DNA from: Oceaniferula marina
Lineage (GTDB): Bacteria; Verrucomicrobiota; Verrucomicrobiia; Verrucomicrobiales; Akkermansiaceae
Direction of reading: 5' to 3'
DNA length: 64,000 nucleotides
Assembly (NCBI RefSeq): GCF_013391475.1
Contig: NZ_JACBAZ010000001.1
Span: 950,377 to 1,014,376 of the forward strand
Below are positions 37,871 to 63,904 of this stretch, one piece after another (position 1 is the first letter of the stretch; the number at the start of each line of letters is the position of its first letter). The notes under the pieces were generated by a model. The model saw only the letters and a program-made list of their open reading frames with translations. It did no database searches and had not been told where the DNA came from. Both the position numbers and the translations under genes were made by a program.

Positions 37871-38950
37871 TCAGGCACCGTATTTTTTCACCGACCCCCC
37901 AAGGACAAAATCGGGAATCAATAATTTTTCATCCAATCCCTGCCCCTTCATCACCGACTCTAACTTACGGACGCCACCACGGGCGATGGTGGCACGATCC
38001 ATCGTGTAATGAGAAATACCTGGAACCAGCGCGTCAAACACATTGTCATAAGTCAATGAAACCAGAGACATATTCTGAGGAATCCGCAACTGATGAGAGG
38101 CCATCCAGGAAATCAAGGTCAAGACCTGGCGTGAGCGCGTCGCAATGATTGCCGTAGGTGGAATTGGTTCATGGCACATCTGATGCAAGGATGTTGCCAC
38201 AGCTTCGGCGGTTCCCTGCTCCACAATGGTGTGCAAGGTGACATCCCCTGAAGCATTCGCCACCGCATTTTCGATCCCCTTCTGGGCTGCAAACAAACCC
38301 TGAAGCTGTGTATCCGGAACCATGTAACCAATCGAGCGGTGCCCATAGCGCATCAGCAAAGAAGCCGCATGAAACCCTGTCGCCTGCCAGTCAACATCCA
38401 GACTCGGCAACTTAACTCCCGGGTAAGCCAGGCCCCGAACCATGCACGGGATCTTCTGCTTGGCAAACCACGCCTGTACATGTTCGTTGGATTGATAAAG
38501 AATCCAAGCATCATACTGCAAACTATCCACCAATTCCTTGAGCCGTGAGCCAGGCCGCTTCAAACTGAAGATCGCCGGGGTGTGAAACTCCAAGGAAAAT
38601 TCTTTGCGGGCCAACATTTCGCGCATGTGATCGATCTCCAGTAACATCGTCGGTGGTAGATCCTCCAGCCGCTTGGGCGATAAAAAGCCAACACGCCGGC
38701 TTCGATGTTCAGCTTGTTTGCTGGATGCCTTTTTGAGAATTTGCCGCCGCTTTCCATGCTCGCCCACGCTGAGCCATCCGGTTTTTTCCAATTCCGCCAA
38801 TGCAGTTCGCAAGGTATCACGACCAATTTGAAGCCTCGCGGCCAAATCACGCTCTCCGGGGAGCTTCTGCTTGATCTCTCCGCTCCGGATCATCTCACGA
38901 ATCACTTCGGCGGTTTCGGCAGTCAATGAACGGCGCTGAGGCAACTTCAT
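37871..38950 (-). CDS. GntR/LacI hybrid transcription regulator of the sialic acid locus
   Basis: A 359-residue regulator. Residues 1-75 are a GntR-type winged helix (MIRSGEIKQKLPGERDLAARLQIGRDTLRTALAELEKTGWL). Residues about 90-350 form a LacI/periplasmic-binding type ligand domain (VGFLSPKRLED, GYMVPDTQLQG, LTYDNVFDALVPGISHYTMD). It is paralogous to the regulators at 56809 and 58199. It is divergent from the kelch/symporter gene with 121 bp between them, in which a TGGT-N11-ACCA palindrome lies 21 bp upstream of its own start. Four copies of this palindrome lie around the nan genes, so it most likely represses or activates them in response to sialic acid or a derivative. The effector is inferred. 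Confidence 0.85.
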   Translation of the reverse strand: MKLPQRRSLTAETAEVIREMIRSGEIKQKLPGERDLAARLQIGRDTLRTALAELEKTGWLSVGEHGKRRQILKKASSKQAEHRSRRVGFLSPKRLEDLPPTMLLEIDHMREMLARKEFSLEFHTPAIFSLKRPGSRLKELVDSLQYDAWILYQSNEHVQAWFAKQKIPCMVRGLAYPGVKLPSLDVDWQATGFHAASLLMRYGHRSIGYMVPDTQLQGLFAAQKGIENAVANASGDVTLHTIVEQGTAEAVATSLHQMCHEPIPPTAIIATRSRQVLTLISWMASHQLRIPQNMSLVSLTYDNVFDALVPGISHYTMDRATIARGGVRKLESVMKGQGLDEKLLIPDFVLGGSVKKYGA

Positions 38951-38970: not shown

Positions 38971-38989
38971 TGGTAAGATAAACAAACCA
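38971..38989. promoter_or_regulatory. TGGT-N11-ACCA palindrome between the regulator and the symporter operon
   Basis: TGGTAAGATAAACAAACCA lies in the 121-bp divergent intergenic region, 21 bp from the regulator start and 83 bp from the kelch/symporter start. It is the first of four copies; the second half also overlaps a 6-bp inverted repeat AAACAA...TTGTTT. Confidence 0.6.
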
Positions 38990-39071: not shown

Positions 39072-41855
39072 ATGAAACGACTCCGATTTATCTCTCTCTT
39101 TCTTACAGCCCTCTGCAGCTGGGCGCTCACTTTTGCAGGGGAAGCCATCGAATGGAATGACGACTTCCCACGCCTTCCTGATGCACATGGCTTTGCCGGT
39201 CCCTTCGCCGGAGTGGTCGGAGAAAAAGATAATCGCTGGCTCGTTGTAGGAGGTGGAGCCAATTTTCCCGACGGGGCTCCCTGGACCGTTGATGCCGAGG
39301 GATACAAACCACCCAAGATCTGGCACGACAGCCTGTTTGCTATTCAGCTGGAGGCTGACAGCCTGAAAGCCAAAGGGGCATGGAAAAAACTCGACCTCAC
39401 ACTCCCCGAAAAGCTGGGCTACGGATCGTCGGTAACGCTGCCTGCACGTAAAACGGCCCTCTTTATTGGTGGTAATCGCTCAACCGATGCCGGGATGTAT
39501 CACTCACCCAAGGTCTTTGAAGTCAGCCAAACGAATGCCGGCATCGCCATCAACGAGGTCGCGTCACTTCCTGATGGAATTTCTGCTGCAGGCACCGCAA
39601 TCATTGGCAACACCGTGTTTGTCTTTTCCGGAGCATCCGAAAAAGGAAGCCTCGCATCGTGCTGGGCCTTGGACACATCAGCCAAGGACAACAGCACCTG
39701 GACATGGCAAGCGATGCCTTGGCCTGAATCCGCTCCTGGCATTCCAGCACGGCCTCGAGAGCACTGTATTACCGGCGTTCAGGACGGCAAATGGTATGTA
39801 TTTGCCGGCCGCACAGCCATCGATGAATCCATCGAAACGGACGCAAGTGACCGCAACCGCATGCATGGTGTGGACTTTTTGAGGGACGCGTATGTCTACT
39901 CCCCACCAGCCAAGGGCGCGATCCACACCGGCAGCTGGAAACGGGTTGCCGACCTTCCCCACGGCCTGTCAGCAGCGCCCCAGTCAGCAGTACCAGCAGG
40001 CGTTAGTCACCTCTTGGTTCTCGGAGGGGTGGACGTTCCCTTCCTCCGCCAGCAGAAAAAGGATCGCCCTGAACTGAACGGGCAAGGTGAAGCTCACCCA
40101 GGGTTCCCGTCATCGATCCTCGCCTACCACACCATCACCAACACCTGGATCCCATCCGGAAACGTCCCCCAGGGGCCGGAATCCGAACGCCGAGCAAACG
40201 ATCGGGAAGTCAGCTACGCCCCGGTTACAACCCCCGTCGTCATCGTCGGCAAGGAGTTTTTGGTTCCCACGGGTGAAATCAAACCAGGCATCCGCAGCAA
40301 CCAAGTGCTCTCCGGAATCGTCAAAGGTAAAAAACTAGGATTCGGAATCATCAATTGGATTGTCGTTGTGGTCTACCTGCTCGGTATGGTCGGTATCGGA
40401 TACTGGTTCATGAAACATGAAGCGGCATCCAGCACCGACGCCTACTTCCGAGGAGGACAGCGCATCCCGTGGTGGGTTGCCGGACTTTCCATTTTTGCCA
40501 CCATGCTCTCGGCCATCACCTTTATGGCCATCCCCGGAACAGCGTACGCCACCAACTGGAACGGCTACATCGGACAATGGCCGATTCTCGTCATCGTGCC
40601 ACTGGTGGTCTTCTGCTACCTGCCATTCTACCGCAGGCTCAACATCACGACGGCCTACGAATACCTTGAAAAACGCTTCAACGTTGCCTCCCGGGTGATC
40701 GCCAGTATCACCTTCATGCTCTTCCACGTCGGCCGGGTCGCCATTGTGCTCTACCTACCGGCTTTGGCTCTCTCCAGTGTGACCAGCATCAATATCTATG
40801 CCGCGATCTTCATTATCGGCATCCTCTGTGTGATCTACACCGTAATGGGCGGAATTGAGGCTGTGGTTTGGACCGACGCCATTCAGGCGATGGTTCTGAT
40901 TGGAGGCGCCCTTCTCTGCTTCGGACTGGTCGTCTTCCAAGTCGATGGAGGAATCGGAGCTGTTGGCGCTGCGATGACAGAACAAAGTAAGGGCATCACC
41001 AAATCCTTCGACCTGACCAACCTGTCGATATCAAAATCATCCACCTCCGGGATCATCTTTTTCCTCGCTTTCATGTTCGCCAATTTGCCGTCATACACAG
41101 CTGGTCAGGATGTGGTTCAGAGGTATGTCACCACCCCCACGGAAAAAGAGGCTGCCCGCTCACTCTGGCTGAACATTGTCATGGTCCTCTGCGGATCCGC
41201 CATCTTCTTTGCCCTCGGAACCGCCTTGTTTGTCTTCTATCAAGCACACCCGGAAAAACTCGATCCCGCCATGCCCGCCAAAGACGGCATCCTGCCATTC
41301 TTTATCATGCAGAATCTGCCCGTTGGTGTCGCAGGCATCATCATTGCCGGCGTTTTTGCCGCCGCCCAGTCCACCATCTCGAGTTCACTCAACTCCGTTG
41401 CTACAGCCTTTGTGACCGACGTCTATGGTCGATTGATCAAACCAGAAAGCGACGACGGCCAACGCCTCAAAGTTGCGCGCAATGTCGTGATCATTCTGGG
41501 ATCGGTAGGCATTGTCGTCTCCAGCTACATCGCGTGGACCAAAATTGACTCGGCCTTCATGCTGTTCAATACCTTTATTGGCTTTGCCCTCGGGCCACTC
41601 GGAGGTCTGTTCGCCCTGGGTGTGTTCACCAAACACAGCTCAGGAAAAGCCGGCTTGATCGGCCTACTCTGCGGCGTCGTCACAGTCGTGACCGTACACA
41701 TTCTCAACGAGACCAAAATCATTGACGTCATGCCCTTACTCTACGGATTCATCGGATTCACCAGCACCTTTATTGCCGGAGCTCTTTTAGGCTGCTTCAT
41801 GCCGGCCAAAGCCGAGGAAGTGAATGGCCTGACCCTCCTGACCCAGAAGAAATAA
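39072..41855 (+). CDS. Fused kelch-type N-acetylneuraminate mutarotase and SSS-family sodium symporter
   Basis: A 927-residue two-part protein. After a signal peptide (1-23) residues 25-410 form a kelch beta-propeller with the NanM-like VVGGGANFPDGAPW motif, AGRTAIDES and the LVLGGVD and NGQGEAHPGFPSS segments. From about residue 420 a sodium:solute symporter of the SSS family follows with 13 or so membrane segments (GMVGIGYWFMKHEAASSTDAYFRGGQRIPWWVAGLSIFATMLSAITFMAIPG). SSS proteins have their N-terminus outside, so the kelch domain would lie in the periplasm. This would couple anomer equilibration with uptake of sialic acid. It starts an operon with the AGE epimerase, which follows after 34 bp. 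Confidence 0.9.
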   Translation: MKRLRFISLFLTALCSWALTFAGEAIEWNDDFPRLPDAHGFAGPFAGVVGEKDNRWLVVGGGANFPDGAPWTVDAEGYKPPKIWHDSLFAIQLEADSLKAKGAWKKLDLTLPEKLGYGSSVTLPARKTALFIGGNRSTDAGMYHSPKVFEVSQTNAGIAINEVASLPDGISAAGTAIIGNTVFVFSGASEKGSLASCWALDTSAKDNSTWTWQAMPWPESAPGIPARPREHCITGVQDGKWYVFAGRTAIDESIETDASDRNRMHGVDFLRDAYVYSPPAKGAIHTGSWKRVADLPHGLSAAPQSAVPAGVSHLLVLGGVDVPFLRQQKKDRPELNGQGEAHPGFPSSILAYHTITNTWIPSGNVPQGPESERRANDREVSYAPVTTPVVIVGKEFLVPTGEIKPGIRSNQVLSGIVKGKKLGFGIINWIVVVVYLLGMVGIGYWFMKHEAASSTDAYFRGGQRIPWWVAGLSIFATMLSAITFMAIPGTAYATNWNGYIGQWPILVIVPLVVFCYLPFYRRLNITTAYEYLEKRFNVASRVIASITFMLFHVGRVAIVLYLPALALSSVTSINIYAAIFIIGILCVIYTVMGGIEAVVWTDAIQAMVLIGGALLCFGLVVFQVDGGIGAVGAAMTEQSKGITKSFDLTNLSISKSSTSGIIFFLAFMFANLPSYTAGQDVVQRYVTTPTEKEAARSLWLNIVMVLCGSAIFFALGTALFVFYQAHPEKLDPAMPAKDGILPFFIMQNLPVGVAGIIIAGVFAAAQSTISSSLNSVATAFVTDVYGRLIKPESDDGQRLKVARNVVIILGSVGIVVSSYIAWTKIDSAFMLFNTFIGFALGPLGGLFALGVFTKHSSGKAGLIGLLCGVVTVVTVHILNETKIIDVMPLLYGFIGFTSTFIAGALLGCFMPAKAEEVNGLTLLTQKK

Positions 41856-43243: not shown

Positions 43244-44161
43244 TTACACCGCTGGGTTCAGGTAAGGAGCCAAGCCCAAGTCCTGGAACTTCTCCCACAA
43301 TTCGTCAGCCTGCGCTTGAGTCACTGGGCCCATAGGCAAACGAGCCGGGCCACATGGCACACCAAGGCGGCTAATCACCGTCTTCACCAAGGGGTGAAAC
43401 GCCCCCACCTGGTTCAATACCCTGATCGCCTCCTCAGATAAATGCTGCAAGCGACGAGCCTCGTCCATATCACCAGCTTTGGCGGCTTCAACCAGCTTGG
43501 CATACAAGGGAGTCATGAAATTAAAGGTGCTACCCACATAGGCATCCGCCCCGGCAGACCATCCGGCGATCATCATTTCATCATAACCAAAGGCAATATC
43601 ATACTTTCCACCCACGGCCTTTCGGCAGGCAAGGAAAACGTGGATTTGCTCATTGGTGAACTTCACACCTCGCAGGTTCGGAATCGCGGTGTCAGCCATC
43701 TCAAGGAAATCAAGCAAGTTCGCTCCGGCCGATGTCAGCGCCGGAATATGGTAATAGTAGAATGGAAGCTCTGGACAGGCAGCCGCAATCTGCTGCATCG
43801 ACTGACACAAAATCTCGGTGCTGTTCATCGGGAAATAGGTCGGGCAAATCGCGGATACAGCAGCTGCTCCAATAGCCTGCGCGTGCGCAGCCAAGTCGGC
43901 TGAGTCCGCCAAACTATTGTGGCCAACATGCACAATCACATCACCGTCGTAATGTTTGACATAGGCTTCAGCAACCCGCTTGCGCTCGTCCGTCGTCAGG
44001 TTGCAACCTTCTCCCGTCGACCCGCAAATGAAAATCTGGGACGTTCCGGCCCCTTTCAAATAAGCCGCCATGGATTCAATGGCATCATAATTCACAGAGT
44101 AATCTGCGTTCATCGGAGTGTAGGCAGCGGGAACGATGCCTTTCATGGTAAATGACTTCAT
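43244..44161 (-). CDS. nanA: N-acetylneuraminate lyase NanA
   Basis: It cleaves N-acetylneuraminate to ManNAc and pyruvate. The 305-residue DapA-superfamily TIM barrel has GSTGEG at 47-52, the catalytic Tyr in FYYYHIPA (Tyr137) and the Schiff-base lysine in RGVKFTNE (Lys167); spacing agrees with the E. coli enzyme (Tyr137, Lys165). It is convergent with the transporter/epimerase operon and divergent from the secreted esterase gene at 44585. A candidate TGGT-N11-ACCA site lies in the region upstream of its start. Its terminator is at 43173. Confidence 0.96.
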   Translation of the reverse strand: MKSFTMKGIVPAAYTPMNADYSVNYDAIESMAAYLKGAGTSQIFICGSTGEGCNLTTDERKRVAEAYVKHYDGDVIVHVGHNSLADSADLAAHAQAIGAAAVSAICPTYFPMNSTEILCQSMQQIAAACPELPFYYYHIPALTSAGANLLDFLEMADTAIPNLRGVKFTNEQIHVFLACRKAVGGKYDIAFGYDEMMIAGWSAGADAYVGSTFNFMTPLYAKLVEAAKAGDMDEARRLQHLSEEAIRVLNQVGAFHPLVKTVISRLGVPCGPARLPMGPVTQAQADELWEKFQDLGLAPYLNPAV

Positions 44162-44344: not shown

Positions 44345-44363
44345 TGGTATGGAATCTAAACCA
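44345..44363. promoter_or_regulatory. TGGT-N11-ACCA palindrome, nanA side
   Basis: TGGTATGGAATCTAAACCA lies 184 bp upstream of nanA and 222 bp upstream of the esterase start. It overlaps the TACCA-TG-TGGTA inverted repeat. Second of the four copies. Confidence 0.55.
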
Positions 44364-44517: not shown

Positions 44518-44536
44518 TGGTTTGATAATGACACCA
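44518..44536. promoter_or_regulatory. TGGT-N11-ACCA palindrome upstream of the esterase gene
   Basis: TGGTTTGATAATGACACCA, extended by one more pair on each side (ATTGGT...ACCAAT), lies 49 bp upstream of the ATG at 44585, in a position typical for overlap with a promoter. Third copy. Confidence 0.6.
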
Positions 44537-44584: not shown

Positions 44585-47500
44585 ATGAAGACCTTGACCG
44601 CCCTTACCGCTGGATTCGGCCTGTTGCTGATCACTCTCAGCCCCTGCGCACTCGCGGAACACCATCAACTCTTTATTCTCACCGGACAATCGAACTCTCT
44701 AGGCACGACCAACGGTGGAGAAAACGATCCAACATCCGGGTCAGACCCAGCGGATCAACACATCCTTTTCTCTTGGCATAATGTTGTTAACTCAAGCACC
44801 AGCATCGGCCATTCAGGCCAGACCTTGACTCCGGCTTCAGGCAGTGCCGATTTCACCACCCTACAGGATCAACAAGGTGGCCACTATGCCGGCAGCGCCA
44901 CCCATTGGGGGCCGGAAATGGAATTTGCCCGCGGACTCTATCGTGCAGGTGTAAGAAACTTCGGCGTCATCAAAGCCAGTCGTGGCGGCGGGGGCAACAC
45001 CAACTGGCACAAAGACTCTGGCGGACACATGTATCAACACATCCTCGACACGGTCAGCGAGGCTGTCGCCAGCCTCCCCCCCACTGACAGCTATGAGATT
45101 GCCGGCCTTCTCTACCTGCAAGGAGAAAGTGACAATGCCTCAGAAGCAGCTGCCGCCGGAACCCGACTGAAAGAACTCACCGACAACCTGCGGGCCGATC
45201 TGGCCCATGCCGCCAACCTGTACACTGTCGCCGCAGGAACCACCGCTGCGGGCGGAACCTCCGCCACCAACCAGGCCGCGATCGCAGCCAGCACCTCCTA
45301 CATCGATTTTTTTGCCAATACCGACCTGAGTAACCAACTCGCTCCCGACGGACTCCACCTCAACAAAGAGGGAAAAACCATTGTCGGGCGCCGATTCACC
45401 CAGGCATTTCTCAACGCTGGAATCTCCGGCATCTCCCGACACTATGGCAAGTTAGTGTTTATCGGGGATTCCATCACCCAAGGAGGCAACGGCAATCCAA
45501 GCTACCGGTACCAGGTATTTAAAAATCTGGCCAATGCTTCGGTCGCAAAAAATGCCACCCCCGGCTATCTCTTCACCGGTAGTGTCTCAGGAGCCTACAA
45601 GTCCAACCCGGGGTCAACGCCCGATGTCAATGGGCAGTCCTTCGACAACCAGCATGACGGCCATTGGGGCTGGCGCGCATTCTGGGAAAACGGTCGTATC
45701 CCCTTACCCGCTGGCCGCTACAACGTCAACAACCTAGGCCAGGGAACCCTCGCCAACTGGACGGGCCAATCCACCACGTTCAACACTGCCGATCAAGGAG
45801 TCATCAGCTACACGGCCAGCAGCTACATCCCCGACACTGCGGTCATTAAAATCGGCATTAACGACCTCTCCGGAGGAGCCTCGGCCAGCCAAGTGCGTGA
45901 TGACATCGCGCTCATCATCGATCAATTACGCGCGGCCAATACCAATATCCGGATCCACCTATGCCAGGTCCTCTATTCCAACAACGTCGCCTATTCTTAT
46001 GTAGACGCCCTGAATGCCCTGCTACCTGATTTGGCCGCAACGAAAAACACCGCGTCCGCTACATCTCCTGTTTGGATCATCGATGCAAACAACGGCTTCG
46101 ACCCAACCAGTATGACCTACGACAACACCCACCCGAACACGATCGGCGAAACCTATGTTGGGGACCGTATTTCTGGTGGGCTCGGAGTGATCGAGCTCCC
46201 CTTGATCCTTTCCACGCCAGCGGCCATTGCCGAAAAAGCAGGTGAAAGACTTGGCTGCAGTCGATTCGAAGGAAGCGACATCTACAATAGTGGTAGCTTT
46301 GCCAGCAACTGGGTAGGGACCGGCTTGACCCCCACACCGGTCGCTCCGAACAACCTGCAACTTCAACACCCGGGAAACCAAGGCTACGTGCTGGATGGAA
46401 CCAACACCGGCTGGTCAGAAATCAACCACCAGCCATGGACTTTCGAAGCTAAGATCAAATTCAACAAGATTGATAATGGCTTCATCTTTTGGCTGGGAAC
46501 CGGAACCCACAGAATTTTGATCGAAGCCCATCCCGACCGAACCCAGGACTTCGGGGCAAACAGCTTCAATGTCAGCCATAACAACCACGACGGCCAATAT
46601 CATACGTTTAAGATCACCCATGACCCAGCCAACAACGTCTATCACCTGTGGCGCGACGGTGTCCTCCTCACCCCCGTGGCTGGAGCCGCCTATGATGCAA
46701 CCGCCAGTGACAACAGACTACTCATGGGTGACTATACCAGTGGAAGTTTCGGTAATCACTTCGACGTAACCTTTGACTACGTCGAATTCTGCACGGGGTT
46801 CAAAGGCAACCAAATCTACAACGGAACCAGCTACATCAACGATTGGAGCTCCGTGGGATCTCTCACCTCCAACCTCGTCAACACCGATGATTTACAAATC
46901 GTCAACACCAGCTCAGGTGGCACTTGGCTTGAAGGAACCAACACCGGTTGGTCCGACCAGAACGATGCCGCCTGGACCTTTGAAATGCGTGCCAAATTCA
47001 ACGCTATCGCCAATGGCTTTGCCTTCTGGCTTGGGACCGGCAGTAACCTGATACGAGTTGAGGTCTATGCCGACCGGACCCAAGACTACAACAACAATAC
47101 CTTCAACGTCAGCCACAACAATCAGGACGGAGAATTCCACACCTTCCGTATTACCCATGACCCCGCAGCCGGAGTATACCATGTCTTCCGCGATGGCGAG
47201 CGGCTGACTCAGATCGAAGGGGTGCCCTATGACCAGTCATCTTCGGAACAACGCCTTATTCTGGGTGACACCACCGGTGGCAGCTTCGGCAACGCCTTCG
47301 ATGTCACGATTGATTATATCAACATCGACTACAATGGAGTCTGGATCCCTGTCGGCACGGATACCGATGGAGATGGAATGTCCGACCTCTGGGAAGACAC
47401 CCATTTTGGAAACCCTACCATTGCAGCCCCCGACAAGGATGAAGACAACGATGGCAAAAGCAACCTGGAAGAATATCAGGCAGATACCGACCCCTTCGAC

Positions 47501-47740
47501 CCAGATTCTGTGATGAAAATCAGCGCCATCGAGGAAACGGATACCGAAAACGAATTCGATATCACCGTGGTCAATACCTCTTCGCGCAGAAACTACACCC
47601 TGTATGCGTCATCGGACCTTGGTATCACAGATCCATGGTCGCCGATTGTGGGCCCCACGGCGGGAGCCGACGGCAGCCTCGTATTCACCGACAGTCCAAC
47701 ATCTTCCCGCTTTTACCGGGTCCTTGTCAATACGCCGTAG
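44585..47740 (+). CDS. Secreted sialate O-acetylesterase / SGNH hydrolase with two LamG-like repeats and a TSP3 stalk
   Basis: A 1051-residue secreted protein. Residues 1-24 are a signal peptide. A SASA-type sialate O-acetylesterase covers about 26-280 (LTGQSNSLG with Ser36, LLYLQGESDN, PDGLHLNKEGK). An SGNH/GDSL hydrolase follows (LVFIGDSITQGG near 291, IKIGINDLSGG, YDNTHPNTIG). Two homologous blocks of about 150 residues, each with F-x-G-[SN]-[DQ]-IYN, EGTNTGWS, WTFE, GFxFWLGTG, DRTQD and NVSHNN, look like a repeated LamG-type beta sandwich. Then come Asp-rich calcium-binding TSP3 motifs (DTDGDGMSDLWED, DEDNDGKSNLEE) and a C-terminal tail without PEP-CTERM. It should remove O-acetyl groups from sialic acids before cleavage and uptake. 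It lies under a TGGT-N11-ACCA site. Confidence 0.92.
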   Translation: MKTLTALTAGFGLLLITLSPCALAEHHQLFILTGQSNSLGTTNGGENDPTSGSDPADQHILFSWHNVVNSSTSIGHSGQTLTPASGSADFTTLQDQQGGHYAGSATHWGPEMEFARGLYRAGVRNFGVIKASRGGGGNTNWHKDSGGHMYQHILDTVSEAVASLPPTDSYEIAGLLYLQGESDNASEAAAAGTRLKELTDNLRADLAHAANLYTVAAGTTAAGGTSATNQAAIAASTSYIDFFANTDLSNQLAPDGLHLNKEGKTIVGRRFTQAFLNAGISGISRHYGKLVFIGDSITQGGNGNPSYRYQVFKNLANASVAKNATPGYLFTGSVSGAYKSNPGSTPDVNGQSFDNQHDGHWGWRAFWENGRIPLPAGRYNVNNLGQGTLANWTGQSTTFNTADQGVISYTASSYIPDTAVIKIGINDLSGGASASQVRDDIALIIDQLRAANTNIRIHLCQVLYSNNVAYSYVDALNALLPDLAATKNTASATSPVWIIDANNGFDPTSMTYDNTHPNTIGETYVGDRISGGLGVIELPLILSTPAAIAEKAGERLGCSRFEGSDIYNSGSFASNWVGTGLTPTPVAPNNLQLQHPGNQGYVLDGTNTGWSEINHQPWTFEAKIKFNKIDNGFIFWLGTGTHRILIEAHPDRTQDFGANSFNVSHNNHDGQYHTFKITHDPANNVYHLWRDGVLLTPVAGAAYDATASDNRLLMGDYTSGSFGNHFDVTFDYVEFCTGFKGNQIYNGTSYINDWSSVGSLTSNLVNTDDLQIVNTSSGGTWLEGTNTGWSDQNDAAWTFEMRAKFNAIANGFAFWLGTGSNLIRVEVYADRTQDYNNNTFNVSHNNQDGEFHTFRITHDPAAGVYHVFRDGERLTQIEGVPYDQSSSEQRLILGDTTGGSFGNAFDVTIDYINIDYNGVWIPVGTDTDGDGMSDLWEDTHFGNPTIAAPDKDEDNDGKSNLEEYQADTDPFDPDSVMKISAIEETDTENEFDITVVNTSSRRNYTLYASSDLGITDPWSPIVGPTAGADGSLVFTDSPTSSRFYRVLVNTP

Positions 47741-47817: not shown

Positions 47818-48507
47818 TTAATCCAATACCAAGGTCATTCCACCCAGTCCTAGTATAGCGGACGGAACTTGAATCACAGGTGCGCTTCGCTCAAACGTTG
47901 CCTTGAACTCCAGATCCCACCCCCGACGCTTGCCTCTGGCGGTATAGCCATCCCCACCCGCGTAACTGTCCTGGGAGCGAAGCTCAAAAGCCCCGGGCAC
48001 CAAGTGTTCATGATCATTGACCGTTGCCTCTTTCTCCCGATCCGAGGCCATGACAAAAGCGTATTGCTTCTCAGGATCCAAGGCTGCCTGACCGTCAAAA
48101 GACCATGAAAGGGTCTGATTTTTGCCAAACTGAGCTGAGTCAAGGCTATGACTTGAAGCTGTCACCAGCTTTCCAATTTGAATAATCTCGCCCTGCTGAT
48201 TGATCTCAAAACCATCATACACCTGGAGAAACAAGTCCCCTTGGACCGTCTCAGTCCCGGTTCCCGAGCTTGATGACTGAAACTCCATTCGGGTAAGAAA
48301 CAACGGCCCTTCGGCCTGCCCTGAGACGACCCCTATCGAAGGAGTCACACCCATTCCCCAGATAGGGCCAGCTTGGTCTGCATCATCCGAACCGGAAACG
48401 GTGCCATGTGACACCGTAACCGTCCCCGCCTGAAGAGTAGCTCCACAAAAGAGAAACGTCATCAGCATCTGCTCCTTTCGAAAAAATAGAGATTCAAGTC
48501 GGCTCAT
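47818..48507 (-). CDS. Secreted protein with degenerate PEP-CTERM tail
   Basis: The ATG at 48507 (MSRLESLFFRKEQMLMTFLFCGATLQA) gives a signal-like leader; a further upstream TTG is possible. The 229-residue beta-rich protein has no catalytic motif that I recognise; it has the same size class as the PEP-CTERM protein at 60377. It ends VPSAILGLGGMTLVLD, which keeps the Gly-rich hydrophobic core of a PEP-CTERM tail but has lost the PEP and the terminal Arg-Lys cluster; no frame restores it. A TGGT-N11-ACCA palindrome lies 47 bp upstream of the start, so it belongs to the putative sialic acid regulon. Confidence 0.65.
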   Translation of the reverse strand: MSRLESLFFRKEQMLMTFLFCGATLQAGTVTVSHGTVSGSDDADQAGPIWGMGVTPSIGVVSGQAEGPLFLTRMEFQSSSSGTGTETVQGDLFLQVYDGFEINQQGEIIQIGKLVTASSHSLDSAQFGKNQTLSWSFDGQAALDPEKQYAFVMASDREKEATVNDHEHLVPGAFELRSQDSYAGGDGYTARGKRRGWDLEFKATFERSAPVIQVPSAILGLGGMTLVLD

Positions 48508-48553
48508 CAGCAGCACCCTACACCACTTCAGGAAAAATCCCAACGAAGCTCAA

Positions 48554-48572
48554 TGGTCTTATATGCCTACCA
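48554..48572. promoter_or_regulatory. TGGT-N11-ACCA palindrome upstream of the secreted protein gene
   Basis: TGGTCTTATATGCCTACCA, preceded by CAA and followed by ATTG, is placed 47 bp upstream of the ATG at 48507. Its centre differs most from the other three copies. Confidence 0.5.
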
Positions 48573-56808: not shown

Positions 56809-57888
56809 TTAGCTCAGTTTGGCCACAGTCCCACCTGGGATTTGTTCCGAAATCAAGAGAACCTGCCGGTGATCAGTCACCCCTGACACAGAGTCAATCA
56901 CCTGGCGGACAAGCTTTTTTACCAACACATCGCCCAAACGATAACTCACCGGCCGAGGGCTGAAGCTCTCAAATACCACATCATCAGAGAGCGATATGAT
57001 CGATACATCTCCCGGGACAGATAACCCGATCGAGGATAAATGGCTGATCATGGTCAACACATGATGAAAATTGACAACCACCAACCCGGTCGGCGGATCT
57101 GGCAGGGAAAACAAGCGGTCAAGCTCTCGCGTCAGTCTGGCCACATCATAGTTATGACTCATGACAACCGGAGAAGGCCTGGGCAAGATAGAACTTGGTG
57201 ACATCAGGGCGTCGACCATACCTTGGTATGCCAAATCATCTCCAGCCAAGGTGGAACGAAACCTGACCATGGCCAATCGACGATGACCACGCGCTAACAG
57301 ATACCCTGTTGCATGACGCCCAGCGCTTCTAAAATCCACATCCACACTCGGCAGATTGATCCCCGGAAAAGCCGACCCAAAAACCGTGGCACTGATCCCT
57401 TGCTCGAAAAACCAGAGCTGAACGAACTCAGGACATTGGTGCAGCACCCAATGCGCTCGATCATGGGACTCGACAAGTCGGGTCAGAACATCCTGCGAAA
57501 CCTGGTTGTATTGAAAGATATCCGAACTTTCCAATTGGACCTCCAAGCCTACTTTCGATAAATAGTGGCACAATTGGGCATACTGTGACAGCACTTGAGC
57601 TGGTGATTCATGCGCAGGTTTCTGGGTCAAAAAAACAACCCGACTCACCGATTCAGCACCTGATTTTTTGGCAAGGATCGCCCTCCGCTTCGATCGTTCT
57701 GCAGCGGCAATCAAACCTTCATGCGTAAGTGAATCCAGCGCCTTGCGCAGAGTCACCCGGCTAATCTGCAGCTGCGACGACAGAACTCTCTCGCTCGGTA
57801 AAAACTCTTCCCATTCACCCTTGGCGATGGCAGAACGAAGAATCTCCGTTGCCTGGGCAATTTTGCTACTTGGAATTTGACGAGTCAT
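56809..57888 (-). CDS. GntR/LacI hybrid transcription regulator
   Basis: A 359-residue regulator with a GntR-type winged helix (GEWEEFLPSERVLSSQLQISRVTLRKALDSLTHEG, about 27-60) and a LacI-type ligand domain (VVFLTQKPAHESPAQVLSQ, VFGSAFPGINLPSVDVDF, RHATGYLLARGHRRLAMVRFRS). It is a close paralogue of the next gene: shared runs include AHW[VI]LHQ, F[GS]S[AL]FP, VDxDFxSAxRHATGxLLA[RK]GHxR and FRSxLAGD[DN]LA. It is divergent from that gene. The ATG at 57888 (MTRQIPSSK) is preferred over a GTG seven codons upstream. The ligand is unknown. Confidence 0.85.
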   Translation of the reverse strand: MTRQIPSSKIAQATEILRSAIAKGEWEEFLPSERVLSSQLQISRVTLRKALDSLTHEGLIAAAERSKRRAILAKKSGAESVSRVVFLTQKPAHESPAQVLSQYAQLCHYLSKVGLEVQLESSDIFQYNQVSQDVLTRLVESHDRAHWVLHQCPEFVQLWFFEQGISATVFGSAFPGINLPSVDVDFRSAGRHATGYLLARGHRRLAMVRFRSTLAGDDLAYQGMVDALMSPSSILPRPSPVVMSHNYDVARLTRELDRLFSLPDPPTGLVVVNFHHVLTMISHLSSIGLSVPGDVSIISLSDDVVFESFSPRPVSYRLGDVLVKKLVRQVIDSVSGVTDHRQVLLISEQIPGGTVAKLS

Positions 57889-58198
57889 CGATTCAAAACA
57901 CAATTTCACCTACCTGCTAATCATTTGGCTTGCACATGCTTTCTCTGGTTCTCTGGAAGGCTCGTTTCATCATATCATCTGCCATCATGATTCTATCAGC
58001 CGTGAGTTCTCATCCTCCAGAGAAGATCCTGACTCCTTGACTTCAGGCTATCCGCTATCCGATCACTCACCTTTCTTGGACTTATTCTCTCTCCCACACC
58101 CCCGCGGATCTCAAGATCCTTGACTTGGTTTAAATTTGGACCACTTTGGTTCTGAACACGTATTGAACGACTGATCCAACCATCGGCAGCATTCTCCC
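57889..58198. other. Divergent promoter region between two paralogous regulators
   Basis: 310 bp without genes. It holds the first TGGT-N10-ACCA palindrome (58126) 55 bp upstream of the plus-strand regulator. No similar site was seen near the minus-strand regulator, only CTGGTTCTCTGG at 57950, which does not fit. Confidence 0.45.
58126..58143. promoter_or_regulatory. TGGT-N10-ACCA palindrome upstream of the plus-strand GntR/LacI regulator
   Basis: TGGTTTAAATTTGGACCA ends 55 bp before the ATG at 58199. With the three other copies it gives TGGT-Y-TAAA-W-N-Y-K-R-ACCA. It may mediate autoregulation. Confidence 0.7.
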
Positions 58199-59266
58199 AT
58201 GCAAGGAATTCCAACCAGCAAGGCAACCCAGACCGCCCAGATCATCCGCGAATCCATTCAACGCGGGGAGTGGGTCGAATTCCTACCTGGGGAGCGAACC
58301 TTGGCTAAAGAACTGATGATCAGCAGAGCCTGCCTGCGACAGGCACTCGCCATCCTCACCCAGGAAAAAGTGCTCGCCCCGGTCGAAAAATCAAAACGCC
58401 GAAGCATTCGACAACAGTCCGACGTTCCGAAACAAAGCGACAAGGTGGTTTTTTTCACCCCCGAACCCGCACACCGGGCCGCCCCGATCGTTCTGGAGCA
58501 AGTCGCACAACTCCGCCACTACCTCAGCAAGGAAAACAAAACCGTCGAGTGGCTTTCCTCCCCGGTCTTCCGCAACCCGCAAACCACGGATTTAACCATC
58601 CAGCAAATCACCAGCTCCCACCCGCACGCACACTGGATTTTGCACCAAAGCCCCCAACACATCCAACAGTGGTTTGCTCAATCAGACATTCGCTGTTCGG
58701 TCTTTGGTTCTCTTTTCCCCGCAGTCTCGCTTCCCTGCATCGATATCGACTTCTACAGCGCCAGCCGCCACGCCACCGGACATCTGCTGGCAAAAGGCCA
58801 CCAACGTATCGGACTGATCCGATTCCGATCCCAACTGGCCGGAGACAATCTCGCCATGCAAGGTATGCTCGACGCCATACATGCCCACGGCGGCGACGCC
58901 ATCCCCCCTCCCGTGGAACTAAGCCACAATTTTCACACGGAGCGACTGACCTCGGCGCTGGACCAACTCTACGCATCATCGCGTCGCCCCAGCGCCCTGA
59001 TCATAGTCAATCACCACCACTTCATCACAAGTTTCACCCACCTTATCTCACGTGGCCTGCAGGTCCCGAAAGATGTCTCTCTGATCTCTCTCTCACACGA
59101 CTCGATCCTCGATTGTTTCAGCCCCCTGCCAACCTGTTATTCCGTCGGAAACCGCCTGATCCGCAATCTGGCACAGATGATCATCAATCCGGCAAGCCAA
59201 ACCAAACCAGCTTTACTCATCCCCGAACTGCGATCAGGAAAAACCGTGAGCCTCATAGAGGTCTAA
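58199..59266 (+). CDS. GntR/LacI hybrid transcription regulator
   Basis: A 355-residue regulator with the same build and strong similarity to the gene at 56809: GntR-type helix-turn-helix (WVEFLPGERTLAKELMISRACLRQALAILTQEKV) and a LacI-type ligand domain (VVFFTPEPAHRAAPIVLEQ, HWILHQSPQHIQQWF, ASRHATGHLLAKGHQRIGLIRFRSQLAGDNLA, FSPLPTCYSVGN). A TGGT-N10-ACCA site lies upstream of it, another after it before the PEP-CTERM gene, and two more further down. It is therefore the best candidate for the protein that reads this palindrome. The stop codon lies inside an 11-bp perfect inverted repeat. The ligand is unknown. Confidence 0.87.
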   Translation: MQGIPTSKATQTAQIIRESIQRGEWVEFLPGERTLAKELMISRACLRQALAILTQEKVLAPVEKSKRRSIRQQSDVPKQSDKVVFFTPEPAHRAAPIVLEQVAQLRHYLSKENKTVEWLSSPVFRNPQTTDLTIQQITSSHPHAHWILHQSPQHIQQWFAQSDIRCSVFGSLFPAVSLPCIDIDFYSASRHATGHLLAKGHQRIGLIRFRSQLAGDNLAMQGMLDAIHAHGGDAIPPPVELSHNFHTERLTSALDQLYASSRRPSALIIVNHHHFITSFTHLISRGLQVPKDVSLISLSHDSILDCFSPLPTCYSVGNRLIRNLAQMIINPASQTKPALLIPELRSGKTVSLIEV

Positions 59267-59287
59267 AAAGTGAACGCTTTTTAGACC
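59260..59287. promoter_or_regulatory. Perfect inverted repeat across the regulator stop codon
   Basis: GGTCTAAAAAG (59260-59270) and CTTTTTAGACC (59277-59287) form an 11-bp perfect repeat around TGAACG and contain the stop codon TAA at 59264. No T-run follows. Both arms resemble half of the TGGT-Y-TAAA operators, so it may be an additional operator pair or a weak terminator. Confidence 0.55.
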
Positions 59288-59296
59288 CCATACACA

Positions 59297-59314
59297 TGGT
59301 CTAAAAACGGACCA
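59297..59314. promoter_or_regulatory. TGGT-N10-ACCA palindrome upstream of the LamG PEP-CTERM gene
   Basis: TGGTCTAAAAACGGACCA lies 107 bp upstream of the ATG at 59422 and 10 bp after the inverted repeat at 59260-59287. A TATATAAAA element (near 59345) follows, a plausible -10 region. Confidence 0.7.
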
Positions 59315-59421
59315 CCTACTTTTAATTGTGGACAAACCACGTGGTTATATAAAAACTCGTGATAGGTGCATGCATTTTTCACCTCTCCCGAATAACAGCA
59401 CAAAGCACAAATAGAACTACT

Positions 59422-60303
59422 ATGAAACGCATAACTCACCCCGTATTAACCTTGATCACCTCAGCTGGCATCTCACAAGCAGCCTTGGTGCTCCACAGCT
59501 CAATGGACAACATTGACGTTGGTGCAGGTCTGGGAACAGATAATACAAACAGTGGTAATTTCAATGTGGGGAACGCCGTAGGAACTGACGGCACTGCAAC
59601 AGCAGTCAATACAGGAGGCTCAGTCACCTCCGGAACAACAGGACAATTTGGAGAAGCCATCACATTCAGCACCGGGACAGGAGGAGATCGCAACGTCAAC
59701 TATGGTAATAATTTCGACGTAGGCAATAGCAGCCAAACGGTTTCGCTATGGATCAATTCAAATAGCTCAGGCACTGGAGCCCGCTTTATAGCATCCAAGG
59801 GAAATGTCGGATCAGGAGACAATGGTTGGTCTATCTGGCTTGAAGGAAGCAGCCTGATCATGCGTGGCGAATATACAGGTAGCGATAACAGCACTCAGAA
59901 TCTTGCTGTTTCACATGCGTTCGACTTCGATGACAACGTCTGGCACCACGTAGCCCTCGTAATCGACAACACAAACGGTACATGGACTGGCTATCTTGAT
60001 GGTGATTCCTCAGCGGACCATGCATCCAATGGTTGGAGCATTGGTGGTGGTGGTGGTGAAAGCAATACGTTTGCGCCAGGAAGCGACTTTTCCAATACAA
60101 GTAGCTTACGACTTGGTGCATCCAACAGCTTAACAGCCGAGTGGGCCGGATCTGCCGACGACTTCGGCATCTGGAATGAGGCTCTCAGCGCTTCTCAAAT
60201 TGATGAAATCGCACTTAACGGAGTGGCTTCAGTCCCTGAACCATCCTCCGTTGCCCTTCTTGGTCTTGGTGGTCTCGCCCTGCTTCTGCGCCGCCGTAAG
60301 TAA
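59422..60303 (+). CDS. PEP-CTERM protein with LamG-type domain
   Basis: The ATG at 59422 gives the signal peptide MKRITHPVLTLITSAGISQA; the upstream frame from 59359 is not needed. The 293-residue protein has a LamG/concanavalin-like jellyroll (SSMDNIDVGAGLG, TVSLWINSNSSGTGARF, DNVWHHVALVIDNTNGTWTGYLDGDSS, DDFGIWNEALSASQIDEIAL). It ends in VPEPSSVALLG and LLLRRRK. LamG domains of this build bind carbohydrates, so it may be a surface-sorted glycan-binding protein. It is under the TGGT-N10-ACCA site at 59297. Confidence 0.9.
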   Translation: MKRITHPVLTLITSAGISQAALVLHSSMDNIDVGAGLGTDNTNSGNFNVGNAVGTDGTATAVNTGGSVTSGTTGQFGEAITFSTGTGGDRNVNYGNNFDVGNSSQTVSLWINSNSSGTGARFIASKGNVGSGDNGWSIWLEGSSLIMRGEYTGSDNSTQNLAVSHAFDFDDNVWHHVALVIDNTNGTWTGYLDGDSSADHASNGWSIGGGGGESNTFAPGSDFSNTSSLRLGASNSLTAEWAGSADDFGIWNEALSASQIDEIALNGVASVPEPSSVALLGLGGLALLLRRRK

Positions 60304-60376
60304 TCCCTTTTTGTCAAATATCAGTTAGAACCCTAACTTCGCCCCAAATACAGCATCACCCCAACCAACAGACGAC

Positions 60377-60994
60377 GTGATCAAATCCATTACTCACATC
60401 GCGCTGACTTTGTCAGCCACGGTTTACACAGCAAACGCCGCAACCACCCTGGCGACCTTGGATCCATTTATCTACGACAGTGAGATGGATCAAGGAACCT
60501 GGACTCACCAGTCACTGACTCTCAATGACGGCGGCTGGATTTCATCCGGAGCCCCCCTCAGCAATCCTACTCAAATCACTTCCTTTGAACTCTTCAGGGA
60601 TAATAGCACTAGTGTAGCAGGTCAAATCTGGATGGCAGCACTCAGCATCCAAGGTGACCTGACCAGCACCGTCGCAGTGTCCTCCCACACCCTTGATGTC
60701 AATGGAACAGCTCAAGGTGGCATCCTGGCATGGAACTTCGCAGCCAACAGCCTCGACACCGGCACTCAATACTTCTTTACGCCTATCCTCGACGACGGCG
60801 ATGGTATGTTTGAAACCGACGGCAGCGATACCGCAACAACTGTTCGCGTAGCCGTTCCGGGCGACATCATTTCCGGTGGTGCCGGTGGAGATACCAAAGA
60901 TTGGGCCATGCGGATCACCGCTGTCCCAGAGCCCTCCTCCGCGGCCCTTCTTGGCCTTGGTGGACTCGCCCTGATCTTGCGCCGCCGTAAGTAA
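60377..60994 (+). CDS. PEP-CTERM protein, unknown
   Basis: A GTG start at 60377 gives MIKSITHIALTLSATVYTANA, a good signal peptide. The 205-residue beta-rich protein has no domain that I recognise. Its middle (SGAPLSNPTQITSFELF...YFFTPILDDGDGMFE) resembles the degenerate-tail protein at 47818. It ends in VPEPSSAALLG and LILRRRK. It is followed after 31 bp by a strong terminator. It lies 73 bp after the preceding PEP-CTERM gene and may share its promoter. Confidence 0.83.
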   Translation: MIKSITHIALTLSATVYTANAATTLATLDPFIYDSEMDQGTWTHQSLTLNDGGWISSGAPLSNPTQITSFELFRDNSTSVAGQIWMAALSIQGDLTSTVAVSSHTLDVNGTAQGGILAWNFAANSLDTGTQYFFTPILDDGDGMFETDGSDTATTVRVAVPGDIISGGAGGDTKDWAMRITAVPEPSSAALLGLGGLALILRRRK

Positions 60995-61025
60995 ACAGAC
61001 AGCAACTCATTTCATTTCGTGTTTT

Positions 61026-61060
61026 CCCCCTGGCTCTCTCTGTAGAGTCAGGGGGTTTTT
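61026..61060 (+). terminator. Rho-independent terminator of the PEP-CTERM gene pair
   Basis: A 12-bp stem CCCCCTGGCTCT / AGAGTCAGGGGG with one wobble pair and a 6-base loop, followed by TTTTT. It lies 31 bp after the stop of the 60377 gene. Confidence 0.9.
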
Positions 61061-61123
61061 CTTTCCACATCACCAAGCTCATTTCCCTCTCGTTTGACAA
61101 TTTCTTTCACTTGTCACCCGCAC

Positions 61124-61141
61124 TGGTTTAAAACCGAACCA
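61124..61141. promoter_or_regulatory. TGGT-N10-ACCA palindrome upstream of the third PEP-CTERM gene
   Basis: TGGTTTAAAACCGAACCA lies 117 bp upstream of the ATG at 61259, just after the terminator of the preceding unit, so it belongs to the promoter of this gene. Confidence 0.7.
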
Positions 61142-61258
61142 CTCACTCCCTTTTGAATCGGTGAGATGAACCATGTTTATATTTTAGTTGAAAGGGCATT
61201 ATACTTTCCCTCTTAGCAGAGGAAGCCCCCCCCTGAAAAAACATCCAATATCCGTATT

Positions 61259-61933
61259 ATGAAACAAACAATCCATTCACTTCTAATCCTGACGGCCTCC
61301 GCTGGAGTATCGAGTGCCGCCTGGACGGCCAGTAACCTTAGCTGGGAAGACGACGGTGTTTCCAACACCCCTCTTACAGGTTGGGTAGAAACATCCCTCG
61401 GCTCGGATCCGCTTGACGCGGGAGACTTCCGAGTTGCGCGTGACCCTGACAATTGGTTCCCGGACAGCACAGCCGGAACACACGTCCTCCTGCTTGAGGG
61501 AGATAACGGAAACGAATTCGGCAGCCTCAGCCAACTCCTCGGAGGCTCCGCGGAAGCCGGAACTTATACATTCAGCCTGGCCGACGTTGGCGTCACCAAC
61601 TTTGCTGATAATGAGAATGCCCAGCTCTCGTTCGGATTTTCACTTGATGGCATCAACTTCATTGGAGGATCATCCCAGACACTCACCGAAGGAAGTGGTG
61701 GCTTTGGTTCTCCCGACAACGGAGCTACGGCTCTCAATCCATCCGTAAGCTATACTTCCGACGGCACAGAAGGAGCGCTCTACATTATGCTTGCGACAAC
61801 AGGAGCCCACACTGGGCGCAGTGTGCCAAGCATTGGGTCGTCCAGCCTCGATTTTACGACCGTTCCAGAACCGTCCTCCACAGCCCTTTTCGGACTTGGA
61901 GGTATGGCTCTGATCTTACGTCGCCGGAAATAG
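61259..61933 (+). CDS. PEP-CTERM protein, unknown
   Basis: A 224-residue secreted protein with a signal peptide (MKQTIHSLLILTASAGVSSA), a beta-rich domain (LSWEDDGVSNTPLTGWVE, FSLADVGVTNFADNENAQLSFGFSLDG, LYIMLATTGAHTGRSVPS), and a complete PEP-CTERM tail (VPEPSSTALFG ... LILRRRK). The domain looks related to the DUF642/NGSFE group in structure only; I see no clear homology. It lies under the TGGT-N10-ACCA site at 61124 and has its own terminator. Confidence 0.87.
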   Translation: MKQTIHSLLILTASAGVSSAAWTASNLSWEDDGVSNTPLTGWVETSLGSDPLDAGDFRVARDPDNWFPDSTAGTHVLLLEGDNGNEFGSLSQLLGGSAEAGTYTFSLADVGVTNFADNENAQLSFGFSLDGINFIGGSSQTLTEGSGGFGSPDNGATALNPSVSYTSDGTEGALYIMLATTGAHTGRSVPSIGSSSLDFTTVPEPSSTALFGLGGMALILRRRK

Positions 61934-62315
61934 GCGGCTCATTTCATCAACATACCCGATATTCCATTTGATATGATCACCCCGTATCTCCTCCCGAGAT
62001 GCGGGGTTTTACTTATCCATCGCTGACCATCAGCCAAACCCATAGAAAATGCCCCTTTCCTGAATCCAGACCGTGCGAAAGCGCAGCACAAACTAAAATA
62101 GAGGCATTTCCAAACATCCATAACCCTTGGCTTTTTTATTCTCATGGGCTGCGGCTGCATCATCCTTAGTGACACTCTACATCCGTAGCCCCGGAATACA
62201 GCATCGCCACGGTCTTTTCTTCGGGCAAAGAAGGCTATCACACCTACACGCCCCCTCCCCACACAAGAGCTTCCATCCATCTTCTCACGACACATCATCT
62301 CAAGCAGCCAATAAC
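61934..62315. other. Intergenic DNA upstream of the sialidase gene
   Basis: Apart from the terminator at 61979-62007 this 382-bp stretch contains no recognisable gene or palindrome of the two classes. A longer in-frame start for the sialidase at 62127 exists here but lacks a signal peptide. Confidence 0.45.
61979..62007 (+). terminator. Rho-independent terminator of the third PEP-CTERM gene
   Basis: ACCCCGTATCTC and GAGATGCGGGGT pair over 12 positions (one wobble) around a 5-base loop, followed by TTTTACTT. It lies 46 bp after the stop codon. Confidence 0.85.
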
Positions 62316-63854
62316 ATGAAACGCCTGGCCCTCATCATCGCTCTAACGCTGCCTCTTCAAGCGGCAAAATACGAAATCACCACCCATACGCTACCCATCC
62401 TCAATGATGGCGAGCCTGCCAGAGTTTTTGACTTTACCTTGCATACCGACAAAGCCCGAACCCTAACATCAATTCATTTCGATACATCACACACCAGTGA
62501 CATCAGCGACATTGAGGAGATATCGATCATGCATCTGCGCAAGGCGGGTGACCGCCGGTATGCAAACATCAAACCGGATCGTCAACACATGCAGCTCAAG
62601 CAGGAGATGAACTTCCCCAAAGGGGGGCATAAATGCCGGGTGTTCGTCAAAGTTAAAAAAGGGTCGAACTTATTAAACCGAATCGGGATCCAGATTTCCC
62701 GATTCGAATTTGCCAATGGAGAACACCTCAATGTGGAGTTGAACAAAAATTACAAACCATCAAGGCTAGCTCACCGCATTCATCAACGCGGGGACCACCA
62801 ATGCCACACCTTCCGTATACCCGCCATCACCAAAGCCAATGACGGAAGTCTGTTAGCCGTGTATGACATGCGCTACAACTCATCCAGGGACCTCCAGGAA
62901 CACATGGACATCGGCCTGTCCCGCTCCACGGACGGAGGACAAACATGGAGCGCCCCCACCCCCATCATGGACATGGGAACATTCGGAGGAAAACCAGAAA
63001 AGGAAAATGGATGCTCCGACCCTGGAATCTTAGTCGACCGCAAAACCGGAGAAATTTTCGTAACCGCTTGTTGGACCCACGGCAAACCCGGCACCCACCA
63101 ATGGCGGGGTAAAGGATCAGAGCCGGGACTGGATATTCTAAAATCAACCCAGTTCATGGTCGTTCGATCCAAGGACAACGGCATCACCTGGTCGAAACCA
63201 GAGAACTGGACCAAACAGCTGAAAGATCCGTCCTGGCAACTCTTCGCACCGGCTCCCGGTAACGGCATCACCCTGAAGGATGGCACTCTCGTCATGCCCA
63301 CCCAGGGTCGTGACGCCAAAGGCACTCCATTTTCTAACATCACCTGGAGCAAAGACCACGGGAAAACCTGGACCGTTTCCAACCACGCTCGCGACAACAC
63401 CACCGAATGCGCCGTGGCCGAACTGTCCGATGGTGCGCTCATGCTCTCGATGCGCGACAACCGGAACCGCAAACTCAAGGGAGACAACAACGGCCGAGCT
63501 GTAGGTCTCACCAAGAATCTGGGGAAAACATGGTCCATACACCCTGCTGACCATGGTGCTCTACCCGAGCCAGTCTGTATGGCCAGTCTAATCAGCCATA
63601 CAACGCAATCAGGCAACAATCTTCTCTTTTTCTCCAATCCACACAACCAACATCACCGCCGTGACATCACCATTCAAAGAAGTTCCGATGACGGCAAGAC
63701 CTGGCCGAAAAAACATCACATCCTGCTCGATCAAGGTGCTGGCTACGGCTACTCGTCACTTGTCATCATCGACAACAAAACGATTGGAATCCTCTACGAA
63801 TCCTCCGCCGCCGATATGACCTTCCAGAAGATTCCTCTCGACGACTTTGATTAA
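62316..63854 (+). CDS. Exported exo-alpha-sialidase (BNR/Asp-box, GH33-like)
   Basis: A 512-residue secreted enzyme that should release terminal sialic acid. The ATG at 62316 gives a signal peptide (MKRLALIIALTLPLQA); the longer frame from 62127 does not. Residues about 17-150 form an N-terminal beta domain (BNR-repeat neuraminidase N-terminal type). The catalytic propeller begins with the Arg-containing FRIP motif (FRIPAITKAND, about 166-169). Asp-box motifs are STDGGQTW, SKDNGITW, SKDHGKTW and SSDDGKTW, with a fifth weaker one (TKNLGKTW). The nucleophile region (TTECAVAELSDG) and Tyr region (GYGYSSLVII) are present. It is the upstream enzyme of the sialic acid pathway, although it lies 15 kb from nanA. 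Confidence 0.92.
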   Translation: MKRLALIIALTLPLQAAKYEITTHTLPILNDGEPARVFDFTLHTDKARTLTSIHFDTSHTSDISDIEEISIMHLRKAGDRRYANIKPDRQHMQLKQEMNFPKGGHKCRVFVKVKKGSNLLNRIGIQISRFEFANGEHLNVELNKNYKPSRLAHRIHQRGDHQCHTFRIPAITKANDGSLLAVYDMRYNSSRDLQEHMDIGLSRSTDGGQTWSAPTPIMDMGTFGGKPEKENGCSDPGILVDRKTGEIFVTACWTHGKPGTHQWRGKGSEPGLDILKSTQFMVVRSKDNGITWSKPENWTKQLKDPSWQLFAPAPGNGITLKDGTLVMPTQGRDAKGTPFSNITWSKDHGKTWTVSNHARDNTTECAVAELSDGALMLSMRDNRNRKLKGDNNGRAVGLTKNLGKTWSIHPADHGALPEPVCMASLISHTTQSGNNLLFFSNPHNQHHRRDITIQRSSDDGKTWPKKHHILLDQGAGYGYSSLVIIDNKTIGILYESSAADMTFQKIPLDDFD

Positions 63855-63886
63855 ACAATCAGGTAAAGGTAATCGCCCCTAAGATG

Positions 63887-63904
63887 TGGTCTAAAAGTTG
63901 ACCA
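63887..63904. promoter_or_regulatory. TGGT-N10-ACCA palindrome after the sialidase gene
   Basis: TGGTCTAAAAGTTGACCA lies 33 bp after the sialidase stop, close to the right edge. It probably belongs to the promoter of a further gene beyond the window. Confidence 0.65.

Follow-up and report, generated by a model that had tools for sequence, protein, structure and literature searches.

A clustered TGGT-N10-ACCA palindrome as the predicted operator of GntR-LacI hybrid regulators at a sialidase and PEP-CTERM locus of Oceaniferula marina

The righthand end of a 64,000 nt window of the Oceaniferula marina genome (5.07 Mb) contains a cluster of sialidase and PEP-CTERM protein genes with copies of an 18-bp palindrome, TGGT-N10-ACCA, situated between them; the window refers throughout to the whole of the 64,000 nt stretch. 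Two regulators of the GntR-LacI hybrid type are encoded here: 58199 (58199–59266, forward strand), in which a domain search identifies a GntR winged helix-turn-helix (wHTH; 9–59) and a Peripla_BP_3 domain (194–349), and 56809 (56809–57909, reverse strand), a 46% identical paralog assigned to the same group, clade S, by domain search, alignment and tree. To the right of 58199 and also on the forward strand are genes coding for a PEP-CTERM protein with a Laminin_G_3 domain (59422–60303), two further PEP-CTERM proteins (60377–60994 and 61259–61933), and a sialidase with BNR_2 and BNR_assoc_N domains (62316–63854). A third PEP-CTERM gene with a site starts at about 64006, just past the window edge (L027:4383–5129). 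Also beyond the window is a gene for a GH20 hexosaminidase, followed by a second sialidase, and because the gap between them is only 46 bp, these two genes probably form one operon.

There are exactly four TGGT-N10-ACCA palindromes in the window, starting at 58126, 59297, 61124 and 63887, and a pattern scan agrees with an earlier sequence-only reading of the region that all four share a core (TGGT-Y-TAAA-W-N-Y-K-R-ACCA) and are intergenic. That reading had estimated about one match per 64 kb by chance, close to the mean of 0.81 in dinucleotide-shuffled versions of the window; four were reached in only one of 100 shuffles. All four are predicted operators on the forward strand. The first (TGGTTTAAATTTGGACCA; 58126–58143) is 55 nt upstream of regulator 58199, and is thus placed as an autoregulatory site, and the second (TGGTCTAAAAACGGACCA; 59297–59314) is directly downstream of the same gene and 107 nt upstream of the ATG of PEP-CTERM gene 59422. 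The third (TGGTTTAAAACCGAACCA; 61124–61141) is 117 nt upstream of PEP-CTERM gene 61259, and the fourth (TGGTCTAAAAGTTGACCA; 63887–63904) is about 100 nt upstream of the PEP-CTERM gene starting at about 64006. The sites thus precede the regulator itself, two PEP-CTERM genes (59422 and 61259) and one gene outside the window, the last of these being the third PEP-CTERM gene. The O. marina sites are 55–151 nt upstream of start codons, the sequences flanking the window sites are mutually unrelated, and most sites have the core pointing the same way with respect to the gene.

A perfect 11-bp inverted repeat (GGTCTAAAAAG-TGAACG-CTTTTTAGACC; 59260–59288) overlaps the stop codon of 58199 just upstream of the site at 59297. 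Its arms are a repeat of the operator half GGTCTAAAA, and it may be a terminator or provide additional half-sites.

Whole-genome scans were performed with IUPAC patterns rather than with a matrix. The bare palindrome occurs 131 times, compared with 113 for a reversed control pattern, and is therefore near chance, such that the signal resides in the core and the clustering. The core-bearing form, TGGTYTAAANNNNRACCA, has six exact matches in the genome, five of which are within 7.8 kb; the fifth of these is 2 kb past the window (C1:1016278), before the GH20 hexosaminidase gene. In the cluster, TGGTY-N8-RACCA is present five times where 0.07 are expected, with a maximum of two in 1000 shuffles, and an enumeration of arms and spacings shows that no other TGGTY spacing or other arm in the cluster comes close. 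A degenerate copy of the operator (TGGTCTATAATTGAACCT; L027:5344) is located upstream of PEP-CTERM gene L027:5512, beyond the window. The sixth exact match (TGGTTTAAACTTGGACCA; C4:768762, L021:1501) falls between genes, close to a pair of long ones for prepilin-like proteins; the next start is 459 bp away, and the match may be either a chance occurrence or a distant target.

The two regulators have features consistent with recognition of such a site. The GntR wHTH family PF00392 is matched above the cutoff in both 58199 and 56809, as expected for GntR-family members generally, and the C-terminal domain of about 280 residues is LacI-like by both its match to PF13377 and a Foldseek comparison, which suggests a sugar ligand. 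A domain search of the hybrid regulators finds no match to the UTRA effector domain that marks the HutC group, nor do they have the short two-helix C-terminal domain that marks the YtrA group, carrying a LacI-type domain instead. In the tree, clade S (support 100/99) comprises 58199, 56809 and homologs in genomes G211, G217, G143, G095, G152, G130, G145 and G170a, and has a recognition helix of the form SRxxLRxAL; a sister group, clade G, has a GRDT helix. Searching the PDB with the single wHTH sequence gave nothing, but a wHTH profile search has NagR/YvoA as its best matches. In NagR, Arg38 and Arg48 are the residues that read the operator GG (PMC4333415), and these align with Arg33 and Arg43, which are invariant in clade S; TGGT half-sites are therefore what the protein sequence predicts.

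The distribution of the site in relatives was examined in 13 other genomes of the genus and 260 genomes of the family. None of the 13 has a close homolog, and matches at E ≤ 1e-40 are present in 22 of the 260, O. marina included. When palindrome classes were enumerated in these relatives with no motif specified beforehand, GC-rich arms confounded the outcome, and the O. marina motif was then fixed as the hypothesis. In G143, G095 and G152, TGGTY-N8-RACCA directly follows the clade S regulator and precedes a sialidase gene, the same location as that of the 59297 site, and in G143 and G095 there is a second palindrome before the next gene, with unrelated flanking sequence. Whole-genome scans with the oriented consensus TGGTYYRRANNNNRACCA find the site downstream of the regulator and upstream of the sialidase gene as the sole match in G095 and in G152, and in G143 two of the three matches flank the regulator-sialidase pair. 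G217 has three dispersed sites, on different contigs, and all are before homologs of O. marina regulon genes: the PEP-CTERM gene at 64006 (TGGT-N10-ACCA), a 79% identical ortholog of 61259, and, about 50 nt away, a 62% identical homolog of the second sialidase. Of three relaxed matches in G211, one lies before the sialidase gene and one before the PEP-CTERM ortholog, both in an N11 form with an extra base in the A-tract; a scan of genome contigs yielded only a Rubritalea metagenome-assembled genome, which is the same as G211. The 61259 PEP-CTERM family is found only in O. marina, G211 and G217 among the 260 family genomes (3/260), and these have the closest regulators. In several relatives the site is 39–75 nt before the start codon, giving an overall range of 39–151 nt.

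The proposal that these sites define a regulon is thus borne out, with the motif preceding orthologous genes in G217, G211, G143, G095 and G152, at unlinked loci in the first two, and with the site being kept at matching places while its flanks diverge. On these sequence comparisons the arrangement is that of a conserved trans-acting regulon and not a duplicated block. The PEP-CTERM genes are in tandem and share common ends, as they might if one intergenic block had been copied along with them, but the unrelated flanks and the same motif before orthologs at unlinked places in other genera make duplication, or simple chance, a scarcely credible source of the clustering. The regulon is better named for sialoglycan degradation (two sialidases, the GH20 hexosaminidase and PEP-CTERM proteins) than for exosortase-sorted proteins. 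In G264, from another family, a PEP-CTERM protein (L123:9095–9793) homologous to those of 60377 and L027:5512 is encoded beside a regulator homolog, and the pairing is therefore old.

Two features of the G217 sialidase locus may be noted. A second TGGT-N10-ACCA palindrome (TGGTGTACCCTGACACCA) precedes the sialidase operator by 21 bp, or two helical turns (L143:9013–9051), and the pair is a possible tandem operator. The sialidase itself (L143:9098–11329) has a GDSL esterase domain fused at its C-terminus, which may couple O-deacetylation to the release of sialic acid. A candidate site in G145 (L084:11513) was dropped, as it is part of a repeat element with longer arms.

A second group of palindromes with the same half-sites is found at a sialic acid catabolism locus between 37.8 and 47.7 kb in the window. 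This contains a third hybrid regulator, 37871 (37871–38950, reverse strand), which belongs to clade G in the tree and is the predicted reader of these sites, together with genes for a NanM-like epimerase fused to a sodium/solute symporter (39072–41855, forward), the only N-acylglucosamine 2-epimerase (AGE) in the genome (41890–43074, forward), an N-acetylneuraminate lyase-like protein of the DHDPS family (NanA-like; 43244–44161, reverse), and a protein with sialic-acid-specific acetylesterase (SASA) and GDSL domains (44585–47740, forward). Proteins similar to the NanM-symporter fusion over its full length are encoded in G095, G106, G201 and G210. There are five TGGT-N11-ACCA sites in the window, four of which are intergenic in or beside this locus; the fifth (41426) is within the symporter gene. 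The intergenic four are a predicted operator between regulator 37871 and the divergently transcribed NanM-symporter gene (TGGTAAGATAAACAAACCA; 38971–38989), two operator-like sites between the NanA-like and SASA genes (TGGTATGGAATCTAAACCA; 44345–44363 and TGGTTTGATAATGACACCA; 44518–44536), and a third operator-like site upstream of a reverse-strand gene at 47818–48543 (TGGTCTTATATGCCTACCA; 48554–48572). In the window the N10 sites are in the sialidase/PEP-CTERM cluster, and the N11 form marks the NanM/AGE/NanA locus (38–48.6 kb).

The N11 form is widespread. When the surroundings of regulators from other clades are scanned for TGGT-Nk-ACCA at each spacing, a sharp peak is seen at k=11, and it recurs in a new phylum-wide sample. 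Within 250 bp upstream of sister-clade regulator starts there are 37 TGGT-N11-ACCA sites, compared with a mean of 0.24 for each other spacing; the nominal probability of 1e-66 overstates independence because the loci are related, but the contrast between spacings is unaffected. An upstream N11 site is present at 36 of 56 regulator loci outside genus g2, and at none of nine tested in this genus, which has small genomes. In G143 and G095, N11 palindromes accompany the clade G regulator whereas those near sialidases are of the N10 form, and in both genomes the clade S and clade G regulators are close together at sialic acid loci (L079:4336–7713 and L082:1876–4218), a recurrent pair. Within single genomes the spacing therefore follows regulator clade, albeit not absolutely, since G211 is a clade S genome with N11 sites, and the window palindrome is the N10 form of a predicted family-wide TGGT-N11-ACCA operator.

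We propose, with a probability of roughly 0.8, that the clade S hybrids 58199 and/or 56809 have TGGTYTAAA-N4-RACCA as their operator, and that it controls the sialoglycan-degrading and PEP-CTERM genes, most likely by repression that a ligand relieves. Both proteins had been suggested as readers, and the tracking of the motif with clade S regulators across genera favors this type of protein. Each wHTH of a regulator dimer would read one TGGT half-site, the two being 10 nt apart, with Arg33 and Arg43 making the contacts to the GG that Arg38 and Arg48 make in NagR. Placed ahead of the regulator gene, of several PEP-CTERM genes and of the GH20 hexosaminidase-sialidase operon, the operator would hold these genes repressed until the LacI-like domain binds a sugar freed from sialylated glycans; glycan-degrading surface proteins and exosortase-sorted ones would then be made on demand. 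Regulator 37871 would use these half-sites at a spacing of 11 nt to serve the adjoining locus for sialic acid uptake and catabolism, and we infer that this difference keeps the two regulons apart with no cross-binding.

Several observations weigh against this interpretation. The sialidase gene 62316 does not have its own palindrome; in three genomes of clade S (G130, G170a and G145) the surroundings of the regulator contain no convincing site; and G264 has only the N11 form. In G143, G152 and G095 the regulator-adjacent sites overlap the last codons of the regulator (TGxKKNQ), and part of their conservation may thus be at the protein level. Finally, a promoter-like match at 61176–61205 is downstream of the site at 61124, which would suit an activator or an upstream-acting site. 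In the promoter scan one stretch scored below the shuffle mean and another above it, with no match clearly tied to a site. The promoter-like match, the distances of 55–151 nt to the O. marina start codons, and the shared core orientation would all accord with the same regulators acting as activators, in which the ligand-bound form recruits polymerase to a promoter downstream of the site. We regard activation as unlikely but worth serious consideration; repression is preferred because sites 39–75 nt before the start codon in several relatives leave little room for a downstream promoter, and because the closest characterized proteins, AraR, NagR and DasR, act mainly as repressors.

Explanations that do not involve the hybrids fare poorly. 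A different regional regulator could read the sites with the hybrids as bystanders, such as the PAS-AraC protein 56022 encoded 1.3 kb from the hybrid pair, but across genera it is clade S regulators that the palindrome accompanies, the regulator genes of sister GntR-LacI clades are themselves preceded by these half-sites, TGGT is a GntR half-site, and a 9.4 kb contig of G143 includes the regulator, the sialidase gene and two sites without an AraC gene; we consider this very improbable. Equally doubtful is a role in RNA as a 5′-leader hairpin. Six of seven sites do form more stable folds than their shuffled versions (z about -2.2 to -4.7), as expected for any palindrome, but several have an inner C/A or T/T pair, the sister-clade sites would have only four stem pairs around a fixed 11-nt loop, sites occur in divergent intergenic regions, and spacing is fixed at 10 or 11; for these reasons a hairpin was rejected.

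Clade S operator recognition can be compared with several described systems. The general GntR operator form NyGTNxACNy (PMC4494728) accommodates both TGGT-N10-ACCA and TGGT-N11-ACCA, and long half-site spacing has a precedent in YtrA-type proteins (PMC4494728). NagR/YvoA and DasR (GntR/HutC) are similar in having the closest solved wHTH (NagR), the base-reading arginines, a TGGTCT half-site, and control of amino-sugar and extracellular glycan hydrolysis genes (PMC4398421, PMC4333415); they differ in having half-sites 4 nt apart and a UTRA effector domain, rather than 10 nt and a LacI/PBP domain. The DasR dre site is A(G/C)TGGTCTAGACCA(G/C)T, with the core TGGTCTAGACCA (PMC4398421), and the O. 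marina GH20 site, TGGTCT-AAAATG-AGACCA, is the dre half-site pair with six extra bases. AraR of Bacillus subtilis also has a GntR head, a LacI-like body and a regulon of glycan-use genes, but its operator (ATTTGTACGTACAAAT) has TGTA-type half-sites with GT and AC 4 nt apart rather than 10 or 11 (PMC4218819), and the palindrome is therefore not an AraR operator. The AraR effector is arabinose, whereas the neighbors here are sialic acid genes, and the sequence match to AraR is weak. NanR regulators likewise control sialidase and sialic acid genes, but that of E. coli is of the GntR/FadR type and reads TGGTATAW direct repeats (PMC4494728), and that of Bacteroides is a ROK protein (PMC3878776). 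The suggestion that no regulon of exosortase-sorted proteins had been described needs softening, since RpoN-dependent control of PEP-CTERM genes, probably with PrsK/PrsR, is known from proteobacteria (PMC9850573). That system also co-regulates exosortase-sorted proteins, but is of another kind, with sigma-54, a two-component system and a role in floc formation, and without a sugar-sensing repressor. A literature search of open-licence PMC articles found no paper describing operators for the GntR-LacI family of Verrucomicrobiota or Akkermansia.

For this widespread Verrucomicrobiota family, the analysis provides an operator rule open to testing, namely TGGT-N10/11-ACCA a short way upstream of the gene for the regulator itself. 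It also connects the breakdown of sialoglycans with exosortase-sorted proteins, the role of which is obscure. It seems reasonably probable that the large GntR-LacI family uses one half-site, TGGT, and that spacer length partly separates paralogous regulons that sister regulators recognize within one cell, with 18-bp N10 sites for sialidase and surface-protein genes and 19-bp N11 sites for sialic acid uptake and catabolism. This suggests a clean system for learning how spacer length alone separates paralogous transcription factors.

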